From NCBI RefSeq assembly GCF_000210915.2, contig NC_016620.1, positions 2,852,001 through 2,916,000 of the forward strand: 64,000 bases of DNA, read 5' to 3'. The notes below the pieces were generated by a model, which saw only the letters and a program-made list of their open reading frames with translations, searched no databases and was not told where the DNA came from. The stretch comes from Halobacteriovorax marinus SJ (GTDB lineage: Bacteria; Bdellovibrionota; Bacteriovoracia; Bacteriovoracales; Bacteriovoracaceae). A program made the position numbers and the translations under genes. Of this stretch, positions 8,285-18,286 are shown piece by piece (positions within the stretch are counted from its first letter, which is position 1; every line of letters begins with the position of its first letter).

Positions 8285-8315
8285 AAAAGAAGCTCAATTG
8301 AGCTTCTTTTTTTTT
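8285..8315. terminator. bidirectional rho-independent terminator
   Basis: A perfect palindrome of 13-bp arms (8285-8310, core AAGCTCAATTGAGCTT) is followed by a T-run to 8315 on the plus strand and preceded by A's that act as U's on the minus strand. It lies between the stops of the two convergent genes at 8278 and 8314. Confidence 0.85.
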
Positions 8316-11300
8316 ACATAAAGTCTACAACACCTGGATCTCTACTAATAACTAATATCTTTAGTGCATTTACGAACTTATCAAATTCTCCTGCCGTATT
8401 GTACTCAGCTAACTCTCTTACTACTTTATATGCCATATCTCCAAGCTCTCTCATACCAAAGATGTCATCAACAGATACAGATGACCAAATCACCTGTGCA
8501 AGTGCCTCTTGCTCTGCGCCCTCTGCTTTAAAGAGTAACCTCTTAATCGACTCAGGAGACATCTCTACAAACTCTCTAAATGCAGCTTGTTTCTTCGCTC
8601 CTAATTTAGAAACGAAACTCCCAACGTTTTCAGATGAAACTTTCTGAGATGCAAATTGATGAACTCTCTTTGAGATTGAATCTTGAAACTTCTCCATTTC
8701 TGCTGCGATCCTCTTAGACTTTGAGCTTGATGCTGTACTGATAGCTTCATCTACTGTCTTATCAAATGCCTTCAGAGCTTCGAATGTTGTCTCTGCAGCC
8801 ACATATTTAGAAAGCCCAAACGTCTCTCTTGCTGTCGCCTTAGTTGATTCATAAACAAGCCTAACTCTAGCATTTAAGAACTTCTTCATAATTAGACCAT
8901 CTGCTAGATCATAAACTGCTCCTGAAACTCTATTTACGAAAGCAGAAGAAGTATTCTTTAATACACCACCAGTATGTGGTCCACCCTCAAGAAGAACCAT
9001 GTAAGGGATCTCTCTCTTTCTTACAGGTATTTTTACAAAGATATCAGAGAGATCTTCCATATTCTTTAAAAGGTACTCAGATAGATCATCTCCATTCTTC
9101 GATACGGCTTCAAGACCATCGATCATTCTATTGATTTTAGTTCCATTCTTTGCCAATTGCTCGAATCTAAATTTTCTAATCCAATTTGTTCCCCAAAGAT
9201 ATTCACCCTTATTGGCCTTTCTCATAACTGCTCTAGCGTGAACGAGCTTATCGTGAGAACTAAACCACTTTGTTGAGTATGACTTTAATAATCTCTGTAA
9301 CGCTTTTGGGTTGTGTCCAAAGTAATCAGCAACAACTTGTGCGGTTTTCTTATTGATCATCTCTGGAGTTTCTCTAACAATGACATTACTAGTATATTCA
9401 AAAATATCATCAGCACCCATTTTTGCATGCTTCTTAAATGGAGCAAGAATCTTTCCAAGCTTCTGAGTCATCTGGGCCATTGTCACTCTCCCAGTCTTAT
9501 AGAGATGCTTAACATTATCCATTTCACTCATAGCATTCTTTACTAATTCTTCAGATGCTCCACTTCTCACTAATTCTCTTGAAATACTCTCTACTGCCTG
9601 AGAAGCTTCATCAGAGTTCTTTCCTAGGGCCTTTGCTAAATCGTCTTGTAGAGATCTAAACCCTAGAACATATCTTGCAAAGCTCACATCAGCTTCAGTG
9701 GCCGCAGTTTTACCTGCAACACCTGCCATATTCCAAGCTTTCTTAAACCCGATTTTTCCTGTATTTCTAAGCATTGTCTTCGCAGAGATATATGTCATCT
9801 TAGATCCAACTTTAACAGATCTTCCAACGACACCTACCATAGGAATAAGTGAAACAGCTTCAAAAATTGCCCATCCCCATGATCTTGATACTTCATCAGA
9901 ACTTCCAGATGTTGCAAATCCCATTTCTTCCATTCTCTTTACTTTTTCCTCGTTCTCATCCGCTTCCATTTTTCTATCAACTTCTCTATAGACAAGAGTC
10001 AACTGCATCGTTAAAGCTGAAGTACCTGCAGCTATCATTGCAATTCCCAAAGGTGCACATAGTCCACCTGTTACACCAGTACAAGCAGCACCGATAATAA
10101 TTGCTGCCACACCAAGGAAACCAGCACCAAGACCTAACCACATATCAGTCCATTCTTCATCTGACATAGAGTTAATCTTATCTAATACATTCTCAGGAAC
10201 TCCTGGAAGCCCTGCTAATTGATTCAATTGGTTTTGCGCCTTAGAAGTTGCATAGAATAATGTCTTCATATCTTCGTGCGTATTAGGCTCCATATTACAG
10301 AATTCATTGAGGTTACTTAAAACCTTAAGCTTTCTCACCATTGCAGCTTCTTTAATAAGATCTTTAAAGATTGGTGATTTAATTCCATTATCAAGAGATA
10401 GAAAGTTCATCTTTGCAGAGAATTTATTATCAATTCCATTTTCCTCTGAGAACTCTTCAAATAAAGCAATTTGCTGATCAACATTTCCCTTTCTCTTATA
10501 GAGATCAAGAAAGAATTGTCCAATTTGTCCTTCATCGCTCTCTAATAGGTCATCGATTTCATCCCATGCTTCACCTGAGATTGTATTATTATACTTAGCT
10601 TCGTACTCTTCAACATTCTGTCTTGTTAATAAAGTTTGGTAAGAAAGATCCTCTAATCTTGAGTAGTAACTCTTTCCTTTAAGTTCTGTTTGAAAGATAT
10701 TTGAGTTCTCTTCATTTACTCTCTCAGCTATATCTTTCCAGAAGTAATCTTTTTCATCATCAGAAAGGATTTTATTGGCATAGCTTGGTACGAGTACTTC
10801 ATCAATATTAATTTTCTTCGCTGCCTTTTCAAGCATCTCAATATGTAATTTAATATTCTGTCTCTGAACTCTTGTCTCACTAGAAACTCTACTCCCTCTT
10901 CTTGTTTGGATATATTTAGGAGTTATTCCAGCTTCTACATGCTCAAGCTCATCCATTGCGACTAAGTAACTTAAACGAACAGAAGCCCATGGATTAAGTG
11001 CTTGCATTTGACCAGTTAAGAAATCTAATTCGCTCATATTGCTAAATGAGAACTCAGAGTTTCCTCTATTAGTATTCATATTCCAGATATATCCAAATAC
11101 AGGATAATTCTTTTCTAATTTCATTTCTTCAAGTCTTCTAAGAGGTACAAAGTCAGAACTTGTAGTAAATTCTTTCAAGTAGTCTGCCATTTGAGAGATT
11201 AAGTGCTTCCCTCTTCCGTCCTTACAGATCTCACTTCCCTTACCAACATATTGACATGCAATTTGAGCATCTCTATAAGCTGCATCAGACTTCTTTACAT

Positions 11301-13032
11301 CTCTCTTTGATTCTAAGTAGAGAGCAATATTTTTAAGGGCCCAATTTCTCCATATAGCAGCACCGTAGAGAGATGGAAACTTTATTCTTGTCTTATTCTT
11401 CTTTAATTTATTAATCAGCTTCTCTGAGAGAATTTCTGTATAGTGAGTTGCTCCCTTTCTTTGCATTAACTCTGTTAAAAATAAAGAAAGATTCTGTCTT
11501 TGAGTATTAATTGTCGCTAAAGTTCCATCACTTAATTTAGTTTCATACATTTTACCTGCGGCAGGCTTTTCAAAGAATTTCTGGAACTCTACTCCAATAT
11601 TGTAAGTGTAAGTTCTTGCAGCCGTGTGCTTCTTAGTTCTTCTATTGTAATTTGCTCTTGTCTTTCCTTTAAATACAGACATCGCCTCTTGTAACTTCAT
11701 TTGAACAATAGTTGGATAATGTGAAACATCATCGATGTCAGCCTTTGTAAAGTGACTTCCATCTCTATCGTTTCTTAGAGCACTCTTATATTCTTCAAAT
11801 GGTAGTAACCCAGAATAACCCATCTTCGTAGGATCTTTATCCGCATTATCCATGAAGTACTCTAAATACTGATAGTTATTTAAGCTAAAAGTAAGTCCAT
11901 GCCCTGACATAATATTTTGTAGATACGTGTCTCCCTGACCTTCTACAAATTGAAAGTTAAACTTCTCTGGCATACTTCCATTAAAGTGAGACTGACAAGA
12001 TCTTGGTACATCGATCGCTTCATTATCTCCAATCATTGCTTGATAAACATAGATCTGAGACATCATCATATGAAGAGTAAACCACTTTAGCGCTCTTACA
12101 TAATTTCTCTTTGTTGGCGTCTTTACCAGAGTTAGAACATCTCTAGAAAGGATTTCGTTTTCATTAAAAACAAGTCTAGATTTTCCCCATGATTCATCTA
12201 ATACATTTAAGTGATATGGATCTGTCTGCTCATCAGGTCCTAGTGTGATTAATTTTCTTTGATCAATTTGATCTTCATCAATTAAGTCCGTTGGAAACTC
12301 AGGAAGAAGTGATTCATAGAAAAACTTACCATCGTACTCTCTGTCGACATAAGATCTTTTAGATACAACGAGATCTCTCATTGGCAGAAGAACACCACCA
12401 AGGTACTTTACAAGTAAGTCTCTTCTTACTTCTTCTTCTACTTCATCGTCATAGAGGTATTTCTTTAACTCATCTTTTAAGATTTTTGCTTTCTTATTTA
12501 AACTTGTTAATAATTCATCATTTGCATTTAACGAAGGAATCTCTGACTCTCTCTCTTCTTCTTCAAGCTTCATTACTTTTTCAGCAAATTTTTCTATATG
12601 TCCCTTAACTCTCTTTGGAACACATTTTTGAGCTTCTTCTTTTGAAAGATTCTGATCAAATGTATATAAGTACTGACCACATGAAGCCTCATTGATACCT
12701 TTAACAATCTTCTCCCAATTGCTTAAAGTTGCTTCATCGTAGGCAACGATTTCATCTTCCTCAAAACCAAATAAATCATCATATGACTCTTCTTCTTCAC
12801 TGGCCTCTTCAGATACGGCTGATTCTAAAGCATCCACTGCATCTGTATTACACTCGGCCTTAAGGTCCTTTCCTTTGATAGAAGTTTTAAAGCTCTCAAT
12901 TTCTTTGAATAACTCTTCTGTTGAGTACTTATGATCAAAAGACGCCTGAGCTGGAACACGTAGAATCGTCTCAGCAAAGGCCAATTGAAATGATATTAAG
13001 TAAATTAAAAGCGCAGAGATAAATCTCTTCAT
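8314..13032 (-). CDS. giant exported protein of unknown function, 1572 aa
   Basis: I place the start at 13032 because GAGGGG lies 6 nt before this ATG and the protein then opens with a classic signal peptide (MKRFISALLIYLISFQLAFA). An in-frame extension of 17 residues lacks this logic. Residues about 45-110 are acidic. A Gly/Ala-rich hydrophobic hairpin (about 960-1010, including GLGAGFLGVAAIIIGAA and GLCAPLGIAMIAAGTSA) and a second apolar segment near 1045 could insert into a membrane. The remaining 500 residues are helical and Lys-rich. No family was recognised. The long soluble N-part plus central membrane hairpin recalls large pore-forming or effector proteins, but this is only architecture. 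A degenerate sigma-54-like site and two palindromes lie upstream. Confidence 0.8.
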   Translation of the reverse strand: MKRFISALLIYLISFQLAFAETILRVPAQASFDHKYSTEELFKEIESFKTSIKGKDLKAECNTDAVDALESAVSEEASEEEESYDDLFGFEEDEIVAYDEATLSNWEKIVKGINEASCGQYLYTFDQNLSKEEAQKCVPKRVKGHIEKFAEKVMKLEEEERESEIPSLNANDELLTSLNKKAKILKDELKKYLYDDEVEEEVRRDLLVKYLGGVLLPMRDLVVSKRSYVDREYDGKFFYESLLPEFPTDLIDEDQIDQRKLITLGPDEQTDPYHLNVLDESWGKSRLVFNENEILSRDVLTLVKTPTKRNYVRALKWFTLHMMMSQIYVYQAMIGDNEAIDVPRSCQSHFNGSMPEKFNFQFVEGQGDTYLQNIMSGHGLTFSLNNYQYLEYFMDNADKDPTKMGYSGLLPFEEYKSALRNDRDGSHFTKADIDDVSHYPTIVQMKLQEAMSVFKGKTRANYNRRTKKHTAARTYTYNIGVEFQKFFEKPAAGKMYETKLSDGTLATINTQRQNLSLFLTELMQRKGATHYTEILSEKLINKLKKNKTRIKFPSLYGAAIWRNWALKNIALYLESKRDVKKSDAAYRDAQIACQYVGKGSEICKDGRGKHLISQMADYLKEFTTSSDFVPLRRLEEMKLEKNYPVFGYIWNMNTNRGNSEFSFSNMSELDFLTGQMQALNPWASVRLSYLVAMDELEHVEAGITPKYIQTRRGSRVSSETRVQRQNIKLHIEMLEKAAKKINIDEVLVPSYANKILSDDEKDYFWKDIAERVNEENSNIFQTELKGKSYYSRLEDLSYQTLLTRQNVEEYEAKYNNTISGEAWDEIDDLLESDEGQIGQFFLDLYKRKGNVDQQIALFEEFSEENGIDNKFSAKMNFLSLDNGIKSPIFKDLIKEAAMVRKLKVLSNLNEFCNMEPNTHEDMKTLFYATSKAQNQLNQLAGLPGVPENVLDKINSMSDEEWTDMWLGLGAGFLGVAAIIIGAACTGVTGGLCAPLGIAMIAAGTSALTMQLTLVYREVDRKMEADENEEKVKRMEEMGFATSGSSDEVSRSWGWAIFEAVSLIPMVGVVGRSVKVGSKMTYISAKTMLRNTGKIGFKKAWNMAGVAGKTAATEADVSFARYVLGFRSLQDDLAKALGKNSDEASQAVESISRELVRSGASEELVKNAMSEMDNVKHLYKTGRVTMAQMTQKLGKILAPFKKHAKMGADDIFEYTSNVIVRETPEMINKKTAQVVADYFGHNPKALQRLLKSYSTKWFSSHDKLVHARAVMRKANKGEYLWGTNWIRKFRFEQLAKNGTKINRMIDGLEAVSKNGDDLSEYLLKNMEDLSDIFVKIPVRKREIPYMVLLEGGPHTGGVLKNTSSAFVNRVSGAVYDLADGLIMKKFLNARVRLVYESTKATARETFGLSKYVAAETTFEALKAFDKTVDEAISTASSSKSKRIAAEMEKFQDSISKRVHQFASQKVSSENVGSFVSKLGAKKQAAFREFVEMSPESIKRLLFKAEGAEQEALAQVIWSSVSVDDIFGMRELGDMAYKVVRELAEYNTAGEFDKFVNALKILVISRDPGVVDFM

Positions 13033-13038
13033 ATAAGT

Positions 13039-13079
13039 CCCCTCAAGTTCTATATGCAATATATATTGCAATTGAGGGG
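13039..13079 (-). promoter_or_regulatory. nested inverted repeats covering the ribosome site of the 1572-aa gene
   Basis: CCCCTCAA (13039-13046) and TTGAGGGG (13072-13079) are perfect reverse complements. They enclose the 16-bp palindrome TGCAATATATATTGCA (13055-13070). In the minus-strand mRNA the Shine-Dalgarno GAGGGG is the 3' arm, so a transcript starting upstream of 13079 would pair its ribosome site. If transcription starts near 13067 the repeat is more likely a DNA operator. Confidence 0.5.
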
Positions 13080-13093
13080 CCAATCACATGCCC
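13078..13093 (-). promoter_or_regulatory. degenerate sigma-54-like (-24/-12) site for the 1572-aa gene
   Basis: On the minus strand GGGCATGTGATTGGCC has GG and GC exactly 10 nt apart, as sigma-54 requires. It keeps GGCA and the TGATTGGC area but misses four of eleven consensus positions (TGGCACG-N4-TTGCW). Predicted +1 is near 13067, 35 nt before the ATG. Confidence 0.35.
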
Positions 13094-15652: not shown

Positions 15653-17434
15653 CTAGGCCTTTACATCTTGATGACGTTCTAAGACTTGAGAAAATTCATC
15701 TACATCGATAGGTTTTTGGATATAGCCATCAAATCCAATCTCTCTAGCCTTTTGCTTATCCTCTTCCATCACATTGGCAGATAGTGCATAGATAAAAGGT
15801 CTTTTCTCATCTTTCCAGTATTTAATAATTGTCCTTGCAGCCTCATACCCGTCCATGACAGGCATTTGAATATCCATAAGAATAAGGTGGAAGTCTTCTT
15901 CATTAAGAGCTTCAATGGCGAGTTTTCCATTGTCGACAATTTTAAAATTAGTGTAGCCCAGCTTCTGCAGTAACTTCTTCACCAGTAATTGATTTACCTT
16001 ATTATCTTCAGCAACTAAGATTTTAAAATCACCATAACTACCTTTAGAATTTTTCTCAACTTTCTTACTTTCAGTAGGGACTTCTTCTTCAGAAGTATAC
16101 GTCATGACAGTGAATGAAAACTCAGAACCGACACCCTCTTCACTGGAGACACTTATCTCTCCACCCATGGCCTCTACAAGTTTCTTAGAAATACTTAACC
16201 CAAGACCAGTTCCACCATACTTTCTAGAGGTTGAAACATCAGCTTGCTCAAAGGAGTAGAAAAGTCTCGCCTGTGCCTCTTGTCTAATACCAATCCCAGT
16301 ATCTTTGACTTTAAATTGTAATTTGAAATAACTATCTGACTTTTGAACGACCTTTACTTTAACTTCAATTGAGCCCTTTTCTGTAAACTTAACTGCATTT
16401 CCAATAAGGTTTGTTAAAACTTGTTTTAATCTTAATGAGTCACCAGATAGGATATCAGGGATATCACTTTCGATATCTATTTTTAGATCGATTCCTCTAG
16501 AGGTTGTTATATGATCAAATATATGGATAGTTGAAAGTACGCAATTTCTAATATTGAAATTTGATTTTACGATACTAAGTTTTCCGGCGCTAATTTTAGA
16601 AAAGTCTAGAATATCATTTATAATTGCAGCTAGACTCTCTCCACACTCTTTAATATAGCGAACCTGTTCCTTTGCTTCTGTAGAGAGTTTTAAATCTGAA
16701 AGAATTCCTGTAAAGCCAATAATTCCATTTAGAGGAGTTCTAATCTCATGACTCATATTCGCCAGGAAGTTACTCTTTAAATTTGCAACACTCTCGGCCT
16801 TAATTTTCGCCTCTACTAATTTAACACTTGTATAGTAAGTCAGCGCAAAAATGAATATAGTTGAAAAGAGTAGGCCAGTTAATAGTGCGACTTTCGCATC
16901 ATTTTCGGCTCCATTAATTCTATTCGTTGCTTCTACCTTTAAAGTAGCCTGATTATTCTTTAACCACTCAAAAGCTTCAATCGCCGGGTCGTCGTCCACT
17001 TTTACATTTTCATCAATTCTTCTAATCGAATATCCTTGATCCCTTAACTTTCTAGCAACACTTATATTGTCTTTATATTTTTGAACTGTTGAATAAATAT
17101 TTTGAATATGAATGAACTCTTCTGGAGTTATTGTTGGATTTTTCTCAAGCTCCTTTAAAATATTAAGCGCTTTTTCCAAAGAGTCGCTTGCAACTTTCGA
17201 GTACCTCTCATCCCCTCTTAAGATGTAATTCTTAAACGCGTGGTGAGCTCCACCAAAGCCTAAAGTATCTTTTAACTCTCCGTACAGTAGTCCCTTTGAG
17301 TCGACTGTATTCAAGTACTGACTCCACTCCTGCCTAATATTATCTATTTTAATATATTGAAAGATCGCCACTGAACTCAAGAAAATACAGATGAGGAGTG
17401 GTACAATCATCAAGCGCTGTTGATAGTTCTTCAA
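15653..17434 (-). CDS. hybrid sensor histidine kinase/response regulator
   Basis: The 593-aa inner-membrane protein has TM1 (about 7-26), a periplasmic helical sensor region (30-180) with the motif GGAHHAFKNYILRGDE, and TM2 (about 182-203). HisKA follows with the phospho-acceptor His229 in NMSHEIRTPLNG, then a HATPase with N, DTGIGI and GTGLGLSI boxes. A C-terminal receiver domain has phospho-Asp521 in MDIQMPVMDG and Lys in YIQKPI. It has no separate output domain, so it must pass phosphate to a partner not seen here. The start is TTG at 17434 with AGAGG 5 nt before it. The 345-bp region upstream holds a candidate structured RNA. Confidence 0.92.
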   Translation of the reverse strand: MKNYQQRLMIVPLLICIFLSSVAIFQYIKIDNIRQEWSQYLNTVDSKGLLYGELKDTLGFGGAHHAFKNYILRGDERYSKVASDSLEKALNILKELEKNPTITPEEFIHIQNIYSTVQKYKDNISVARKLRDQGYSIRRIDENVKVDDDPAIEAFEWLKNNQATLKVEATNRINGAENDAKVALLTGLLFSTIFIFALTYYTSVKLVEAKIKAESVANLKSNFLANMSHEIRTPLNGIIGFTGILSDLKLSTEAKEQVRYIKECGESLAAIINDILDFSKISAGKLSIVKSNFNIRNCVLSTIHIFDHITTSRGIDLKIDIESDIPDILSGDSLRLKQVLTNLIGNAVKFTEKGSIEVKVKVVQKSDSYFKLQFKVKDTGIGIRQEAQARLFYSFEQADVSTSRKYGGTGLGLSISKKLVEAMGGEISVSSEEGVGSEFSFTVMTYTSEEEVPTESKKVEKNSKGSYGDFKILVAEDNKVNQLLVKKLLQKLGYTNFKIVDNGKLAIEALNEEDFHLILMDIQMPVMDGYEAARTIIKYWKDEKRPFIYALSANVMEEDKQKAREIGFDGYIQKPIDVDEFSQVLERHQDVKA

Positions 17435-17544
17435 GAAAACCTCTGTTTAATAGTTACCCCTATACTTTAATCCAAAAAAAAGGAAGGTTGTAGGTTTTCC
17501 TAAAGAAATTATATTTCAATCAAAGATAAAGTACTGATTATTCA

Positions 17545-17730
17545 TAAGAAAAAAATGGCCCCCAAGAACTGGGGGCCTATATATTTAAAAGTCAATGAAG
17601 ATGGCCCTCTATTACACAACACAAATAGGAAACCAACACAACTATAGAACCCGCTCCTTATAAAGGAGCATGGCCATCCCACCAACTTACTAATTTCTTG
17701 AATGCGGCTTTATAACGCAGATTTGAAATG
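17545..17730 (-). ncRNA. candidate structured non-coding RNA with its own promoter and terminator
   Basis: This 345-bp gap between genes (17435-17779) has no credible ORF. On the minus strand, a TATACT -10 (17742-17737) precedes about 185 nt that fold well. An outer helix of about 17 bp with one bulge joins 17687-17671 to 17609-17592 (ends AAGU/ACUU, inner GAUGGCC/GGCCAUC). Inside are a GCUCC/GGAGC hairpin and a UUCUAU/AUAGAG helix, giving a three-way junction. The sequence TTGTGTTG occurs twice in the inner loop. It ends with the strong terminator at 17549-17577. No known family was recognised; length is 6S-like but the fold is not. Confidence 0.5.
17549..17577 (-). terminator. rho-independent terminator of the candidate RNA
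   Basis: GGCCCCC/GGGGGCC (17557-17563 and 17571-17577) form a 7-bp all-GC stem with a 7-nt loop. On the minus strand it is followed after one A by seven T's. It lies 115 bp before the sensor kinase start, so it could instead attenuate that gene. Confidence 0.8.
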
Positions 17731-17779
17731 ATCTCTAGTATAGATTCTAGAGTCTAAAAAAGTTACACACCTTTATATT

Positions 17780-18286
17780 CTATTGAGCAATGATTGCGCC
17801 CAATAGAGCAGCTCCAGCGGCAAAGATAATAGAGTTAGCGGCCTTATCTGAAACTCTATATCCGCCTTTAGACTTAGAAGGGTTCTCTCTATCGTAGTAA
17901 GGAATATCTGGTTCTCTTTCAACATTATCCTGCGGAGGAACTCCAAGACTGCTAAGTTCAAAAGTGCTGGCAGATTGGATATCTAAAAAGTGCACGAACT
18001 TACTTACTTCATTAATTTTAATATTCTTCTGCTTAGCAACGGCTTCAATAGTATAGGTCTTCTTTGTATTCTTACGTATAGAGTCTCTAAGCTTTGAATT
18101 CAACACTCTTACAGGATAGGCGTAACTCTTTCCCCTCTTATCTTTAATTCTAAAATAGAGATCGCTATCTTGTCCCTCAACACCCTTCTTGATAACAAAC
18201 TTACCAGAGAGTCTTAAGACCTCTTCGCTTTGTCCAAAGGACGCCAAACTAATAATTAAAGATAGTACAATTGCTAATGATTTCAT
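17780..18286 (-). CDS. exported protein of unknown function, 168 aa
   Basis: The ATG at 18286 has AGGGGA 5 nt upstream; an upstream in-frame TTG lacks this. A signal peptide (MKSLAIVLSLIISLASFGQS) is followed by a compact beta-rich region that looks like a small OB- or SH3-like barrel (KDKRGKSYAYPVRVLN), a linker rich in charged residues, and a final hydrophobic segment (SIIFAAGAALLGAIIAQ) that may anchor it to a membrane. No family was recognised. It is divergent from the sigma-54-linked gene at 18486 and shares the intergenic palindrome with it. Confidence 0.7.
   Translation of the reverse strand: MKSLAIVLSLIISLASFGQSEEVLRLSGKFVIKKGVEGQDSDLYFRIKDKRGKSYAYPVRVLNSKLRDSIRKNTKKTYTIEAVAKQKNIKINEVSKFVHFLDIQSASTFELSSLGVPPQDNVEREPDIPYYDRENPSKSKGGYRVSDKAANSIIFAAGAALLGAIIAQ

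Follow-up and report, generated by a model that had tools for sequence, protein, structure and literature searches.

A genus-wide structured small RNA of Halobacteriovorax and a candidate target in the leader of an L,D-transpeptidase gene

What does the intergenic gap at 17435-17779 (345 bp) of Halobacteriovorax marinus SJ encode? The window analysed here is a 64-kb stretch out of a 3.44-Mb genome in two contigs, and an earlier note had placed in this gap, on the minus strand, a compact structured RNA with a three-way junction and a strong terminator. The terminator was found, and the fold, the homologues and the covariation bear this reading out: the gap contains an RNA gene on the minus strand, at about 17703-17549. 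It is a short non-coding RNA, located between two genes and folded as a conserved three-way junction, and we regard it as a real and new structured small RNA gene, of a kind that is already known. Its elements are the following.

17672-17688, minus strand: 5' arm of the outer helix P1 (fold, covariation and hand-set helices)
17653-17669, minus strand: P2 hairpin, 17669-17663 pairing with 17659-17653 (covariation and hand-set helices)
17644-17649, minus strand: 5' arm of P3, UUCUAU (hand-set helices)
17613-17643, minus strand: large exposed G/U-rich loop on P3, 30-32 nt in the homologues; proposed pairing region
17619-17631, minus strand: UUCCUAUUUGUGU within the loop, invariant in all five genomes of the genus, complement of ACACAAAUAGGAA; proposed seed
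17607-17612, minus strand: 3' arm of P3, AUAGAG (hand-set helices)
17589-17606, minus strand: 3' arm of P1, with C17600 bulged (fold, covariation and hand-set helices)
17576-17584, minus strand: AUAUAUAGG, invariant in all five genomes, single-stranded except for its last two G
17549-17577, minus strand: intrinsic terminator, a stem of 9 pairs (17577-17557) followed by a U run, with compensatory changes between genomes in the stem

The region 17742-17545 folds with -58.4 kcal/mol (z -2.84), a stability equalled by 2 of 200 dinucleotide shuffles, and the core without the terminator reaches z -3.05 (1 of 200 shuffles as stable). At z about -3, the fold energy is moderately better than that of dinucleotide shuffles; the unconstrained fold of one homologue taken alone (G002) is weak, with z -1.21. 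As the earlier note had described, an outer helix of 17 pairs encloses two inner helices. In the window five of the outer pairs are G-U, P2 has 7 pairs and P3 has 6. The second inner helix had to be corrected to P3 (17649-17644 with 17612-17607), which is absent from the minimum-energy fold and is backed by the homologues.

These homologues were found with a custom covariance model built from the sequences of the five genomes of the genus (G000-G004, G000 being this genome). Searched against 143 genomes, the model recovered the RNA in all five (144.7-170.5 bits) and in none of the 138 genomes outside the genus, and the next best match scored 39.8 bits; stricter filters are applied to a search of more than 40 genomes, and very diverged relatives may be missed by it. 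Six weaker matches that we inspected owe their alignment mainly to a terminator; four of these also pair loosely over a stretch at P1, and the loop is missing from all six. When 59 genomes were searched at the DNA level, only the five of the genus gave clear matches. The loop pattern, with up to three mismatches, was present in four of 129 genomes, all of the genus (a one-base deletion hides G002 from the pattern), and in no viral contig. The RNA is thus genus-wide and, within the reach of these searches, limited to the genus.

The earlier note had named a lack of covariation in the outer helix among the outcomes that would speak against it, and P1 does show changes on both sides. In the alignment fitted to the model, 92.3% of 183 cells are paired, a value that none of 500 shuffles attained, compared with at most 57.4% when the pairing partners were slid. 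Changes on both sides affect eight pairs, distributed over P1, P2, P3 and the terminator (all five helices of the model-fitted alignment), and again none of 500 shuffles reached this number. Since only five related sequences are compared and the alignment is fitted to the model, these figures lean towards structure. The counts come from this alignment together with hand-set helices, because MAFFT put the 3' arm in the wrong place for G001 and G002. In the hand-set registers, only standard pairs occur in P1, P2, P3 and the terminator of the five genomes. The inner part of P1, for instance, is AUGGCC/GGCCAU in three genomes, with UUACC/GGUAA instead in G002, and P3 has a U-A inner pair in G000 and G004 where G001 and G002 have A-U.

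We then asked whether the RNA belongs to a known family. No Rfam 15 family reached its gathering score in the window, the scan found no riboswitch there, and in the gap, up to an E-value of 5, only terminator-like or chance matches were obtained. The covariance searches thus returned five genus homologues and no known family, in agreement with the initial reading, which could not match the RNA to 6S, SRP, tmRNA, RNase P or a known riboswitch; for SRP, tmRNA and RNase P this agreement comes from the Rfam scan of the window only. The 6S RNA was ruled out separately: the sole RF00013 match in the genome lies away from this RNA, at G000:C1:179900-180098. It scores 53.8 bits for a gathering score of 46.4, which indicates that the 6S RNA of this lineage has diverged from the Rfam model.

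The RNA is framed by two genes.

17780-18286, minus strand: gene for a small exported protein without Pfam match, directly upstream of the RNA in all five genus genomes
15653-17434, minus strand: hybrid histidine kinase gene (HisKA, HATPase_c and receiver domains), adjoining the RNA in only three of the five

The kinase gene starts about 115 nt beyond the RNA terminator in this genome, a position from which the RNA could be taken for a leader or a riboswitch of the kinase. The position upstream of a hybrid kinase, given in the earlier note, holds here and in two of the four relatives. In the other two it fails: the downstream gene of G001 lies convergently, on the opposite strand, and G002 has another gene at this place. 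The kinase is thus incidental. With a strong terminator in between and no Rfam match, a function as kinase leader or riboswitch is extremely improbable, and the constancy of the upstream gene, set against a kinase present in three of the five genomes, led us to rule it out. The RNA is the leader of neither the kinase, nor the convergent gene, nor the other downstream gene.

The upstream side raises another question. No terminator was found between the exported-protein gene and the RNA, so that this gene would use the terminator of the RNA, and for this reason the RNA could originate from its 3' untranslated region. It would then be a conserved mRNA 3' end with its terminator, acting in cis on stability or localisation and perhaps also released as a small RNA, and the identity of the upstream gene in the five genomes fits such an origin. 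What makes it quite unlikely in our opinion is, for one part, that a plain 3' end would not be expected to have such a conserved loop and that more distant homologues of the upstream gene are devoid of the RNA (none related was found downstream of them at 10 loci outside the genus). For the other part, two conserved elements stand at a fixed spacing between the gene and the RNA in all five genomes.

17752-17767, minus strand: block TGTAAYTT.TTTA.A, present in all five genomes with its start exactly 53 nt ahead of the -10-like box
17709-17714, minus strand: -10-like box TATAAA (alignment of the five genomes)

The box reads TATAAA, TATAAG, TATAAG, TAAAAG and TACAAA in the five genomes, and a TATAAR-like box at such a fixed spacing would fit a -10 element with an upstream activator site. 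The TGTAAY block is a putative activator site near -60, or possibly a promoter element. A search by consensus gave no sigma-70 promoter match for the RNA gene, a point against a free-standing gene. The -10 box first proposed, TATACT at 17741-17736, is not conserved and has to be abandoned in favour of the TATAAR-like box. As the latter sits at 17714-17709, transcription would start near 17702, and a length of about 155 nt is more likely than the 185 nt initially estimated.

As a separate observation, another hairpin is found about 100-200 nt downstream of a homologue of the upstream gene in another genus (loci L035 and L036, from genomes G077 and G010). It shows apparent compensatory changes, GGGATAAGGCTGATT..AATCAGCTTAT versus GGGATAGGGTGATT..AATCACTCTAT, and has no Rfam match.

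The most constrained part of the RNA is not its outer helix, since the arms of P1 drift while the P3 loop is nearly invariant across the five genomes. The loop had been reported to carry TTGTGTTG twice. This is true in the window (17641-17634 and 17624-17617) and does not extend to the genus, each of the two UUGUGUUG copies being broken in at least one homologue. One could wonder whether the loop is conserved as a short coding gene, and a frame through it does read VLVSYLCCVI, or near it, in several homologues. However, the frame is shared as a consequence of the nucleotide identity in the loop. Moreover, start codons vary between homologues, a one-base deletion precedes the frame in G002, and in G004 the changes affect the encoded residues. 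The five homologues have no conserved small reading frame, and we ruled out a coding gene, which would be very improbable. We also observed that AUAGG, before the terminator (17584-17576), can pair with CCUAU of the loop (17629-17625). This could form a putative pseudoknot; both segments being invariant, covariation cannot test their pairing.

We propose, giving this proposal about even chances, that the RNA is a free-standing trans-acting antisense small RNA of about 155 nt that is independent of Hfq and whose loop blocks ribosome-binding sites. P1-P3 would form a rigid scaffold presenting the 30-32-nt G/U-rich loop, the centre of which, GUUGUGUUGGUUUCCUAUUUGUGUUGUGU, would act as an anti-Shine-Dalgarno sequence. 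By pairing with target mRNAs at their ribosome-binding site, the loop would block translation, the presumed outcome being repression and not activation, and would do so without Hfq. Hfq (PF17209) was detected in none of the five genus genomes at an E-value of 0.01 or better, and in 5 of 14 control genomes.

Alternatively, an RNA-binding protein could land on the conserved G/U-rich loop, through its UUGUGUUG motifs, and on the invariant AUAUAUAGG. The RNA would titrate or guide this protein, and the match with the transpeptidase leader described below would then be due to chance or to the same protein site. A 30-nt conserved loop exceeds the usual seed of 7-12 nt, its motif is repeated, and a second invariant single-stranded segment lies near the terminator, three features that would suit such an RNA. 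Nevertheless, the invariant core of the loop is complementary to a sequence resembling a Shine-Dalgarno, and no candidate protein partner was identified. CsrA-like proteins recognise a GGA motif; the conserved loop is without it, which argues against a CsrA-like partner. We thus consider a protein-binding RNA unlikely.

Coming back to an antisense RNA, the best candidate target mRNA would be that of a YkuD-type L,D-transpeptidase (G000:C1:1837335-1838726, minus strand; PF03734, 31.4 bits for a cut-off of 23.4), with orthologues in all five genus genomes. It was chosen from a genome-wide pattern search for one long match in a single genome, G003, whose leader contains a 12-nt perfect complement of the loop. 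Watson-Crick matches between leader and loop amount to 11/12 in G000, 9/9 in G004, 14/15 in G003, 11/11 in G001 and 10/11 in G002. With the loop of each genome and at most one mismatch, the complementarity ends 7-8 nt before the ATG in the five genomes. The leader is short, a ACACAAAUAGG-like sequence running into the Shine-Dalgarno, and is preceded by a conserved promoter (TTGACT or TTGACG, a 17-nt spacer, then TTTATT or CATTAT). In all five genomes (L269-L273), the -10 box is also followed by a C run before the leader begins. This run resembles a GC-rich discriminator and, if transcribed, pairs with the G-rich Shine-Dalgarno; such a fold of the leader upon itself would count against the proposal.

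We compared the transpeptidase leaders with other orthologous leaders, 78 sets in all with the transpeptidase included, drawn from two neighbourhoods, none longer than 80 kb, in the five genomes. By ungapped complementarity, the transpeptidase comes first of the 78 sets, with 24.2 for 17.8 for the next one. Among 400 shuffled loops, one did as well on it, and two when the discovery genome G003 was left out; since the five leaders are related by descent, these counts suggest more independence than there is. The signal is weak when duplex energy is used instead. The transpeptidase is then first or second of the 78 sets without standing out, with 14 of 400 shuffles as good for it, and 28 of 400 when the top set of the 78 is taken, whichever it is. 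When duplex energy was computed with the loop of each genome, the transpeptidase ranked second of 78, behind a translation-factor-like gene, which we take to be infB-like. The complementarity suggests, without proving it, that the RNA controls the transpeptidase gene. That the latter is a real target seems to us possible, with the balance leaning against it. The first idea of a target-pairing loop has thus gained one conserved candidate, found by complementarity, and it remains a candidate.

Two further searches yielded no target site common to three or more genomes, a point against the proposal. A 13-nt complement of the loop, with at most one mismatch, occurs at 55 sites in the five genomes, five of which are the RNA itself; among the remaining 50, no conserved site at a start codon was found. 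A search for AAATAGGAA followed by ATG returned 78 sites. A plausible start is present at 38 of these, and no site is common to more than two genomes; AAATAGGAA is a common Shine-Dalgarno in the genus genomes. A search for AACACAA, a Shine-Dalgarno and an ATG gave 59 sites at 57 distinct loci, 23 of them with a plausible start; the transpeptidase came from this search. A second AACACAA locus, for an exported protein, was pursued and set aside, being present in only two of the five genomes, and an apparent excess of exported proteins among these sites was dropped after 91 of 400 shuffled loops equalled it on the 78 leader sets. As a side observation, the window also has a gene (8314-13083, minus strand) whose product, a protein of about 1570 residues predicted to be exported, has no Pfam match; of four genomes compared, three have AGGGGACUUAU ahead of the ATG in its leader and the fourth has AGGGGACAAUU.

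What would be the benefit of such a regulation for the bacterium? In Bdellovibrio, the prey wall is modified by L,D-transpeptidases, and these are upregulated when the prey is invaded (PMC12546842, PMC10482364). A regulatory RNA acting on an enzyme of this type would therefore link RNA control to predation. On this basis, a more speculative hypothesis, which we hold to be doubtful, would be that a genus-specific, Hfq-independent small RNA controls a cell-wall L,D-transpeptidase by pairing of its loop at the ribosome-binding site and could time the remodelling of the wall at prey invasion, the pairing of AUAUAUAGG with CCUAU keeping the loop closed until the target displaces it. This presumes that the RNA is transcribed, that it pairs with the leader in vivo and that it plays a role in predation. 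We found no published small-RNA work on Halobacteriovorax, nor any on Bdellovibrionota small RNA with Hfq, in the open-licence literature. The discovery is still that of one further lineage-specific small RNA. With a genus-wide structured RNA and a named candidate target, post-transcriptional control in an apparently Hfq-free predator nevertheless becomes directly testable.

Parallels can be drawn with several known RNAs. The 6S RNA (RF00013) has a similar length and a long closing helix with an open centre, whereas the RNA described here does not match its covariance model. MicC (RF00121) gave the top Rfam score in the gap, 25.1 bits, but its gathering score, 90, is far higher and what pairs in this match is essentially the terminator. 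Known small RNAs with a G/U seed, such as GcvB, use Hfq, which counts against the proposal in a host where no Hfq was found. GcvB (RF00022), an enterobacterial small RNA, is nevertheless the closest in its proposed action: an unstructured and highly conserved GU-rich region of GcvB, R1, pairs with CA-rich sequences in or near ribosome-binding sites (PMC3879156), and the loop is G/U-rich like this R1 region. Unlike GcvB, our RNA has a three-way junction and an anti-Shine-Dalgarno centre in its loop, its host lacks a detectable Hfq, no link with amino-acid transporters was seen, and the covariance model of GcvB does not match it up to an E-value of 5. Finally, the attack phase of Bdellovibrio bacteriovorus has its own phase-specific small RNAs of 98-655 nt, APsRNA1-7 and merRNA, for which the authors report no homologues outside B. 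bacteriovorus (PMC3627812). A c-di-GMP riboswitch is part of merRNA, whereas no riboswitch was found in this window. These RNAs and the RNA of Halobacteriovorax are alike as lineage-restricted, intergenic and structured RNAs of a predator.
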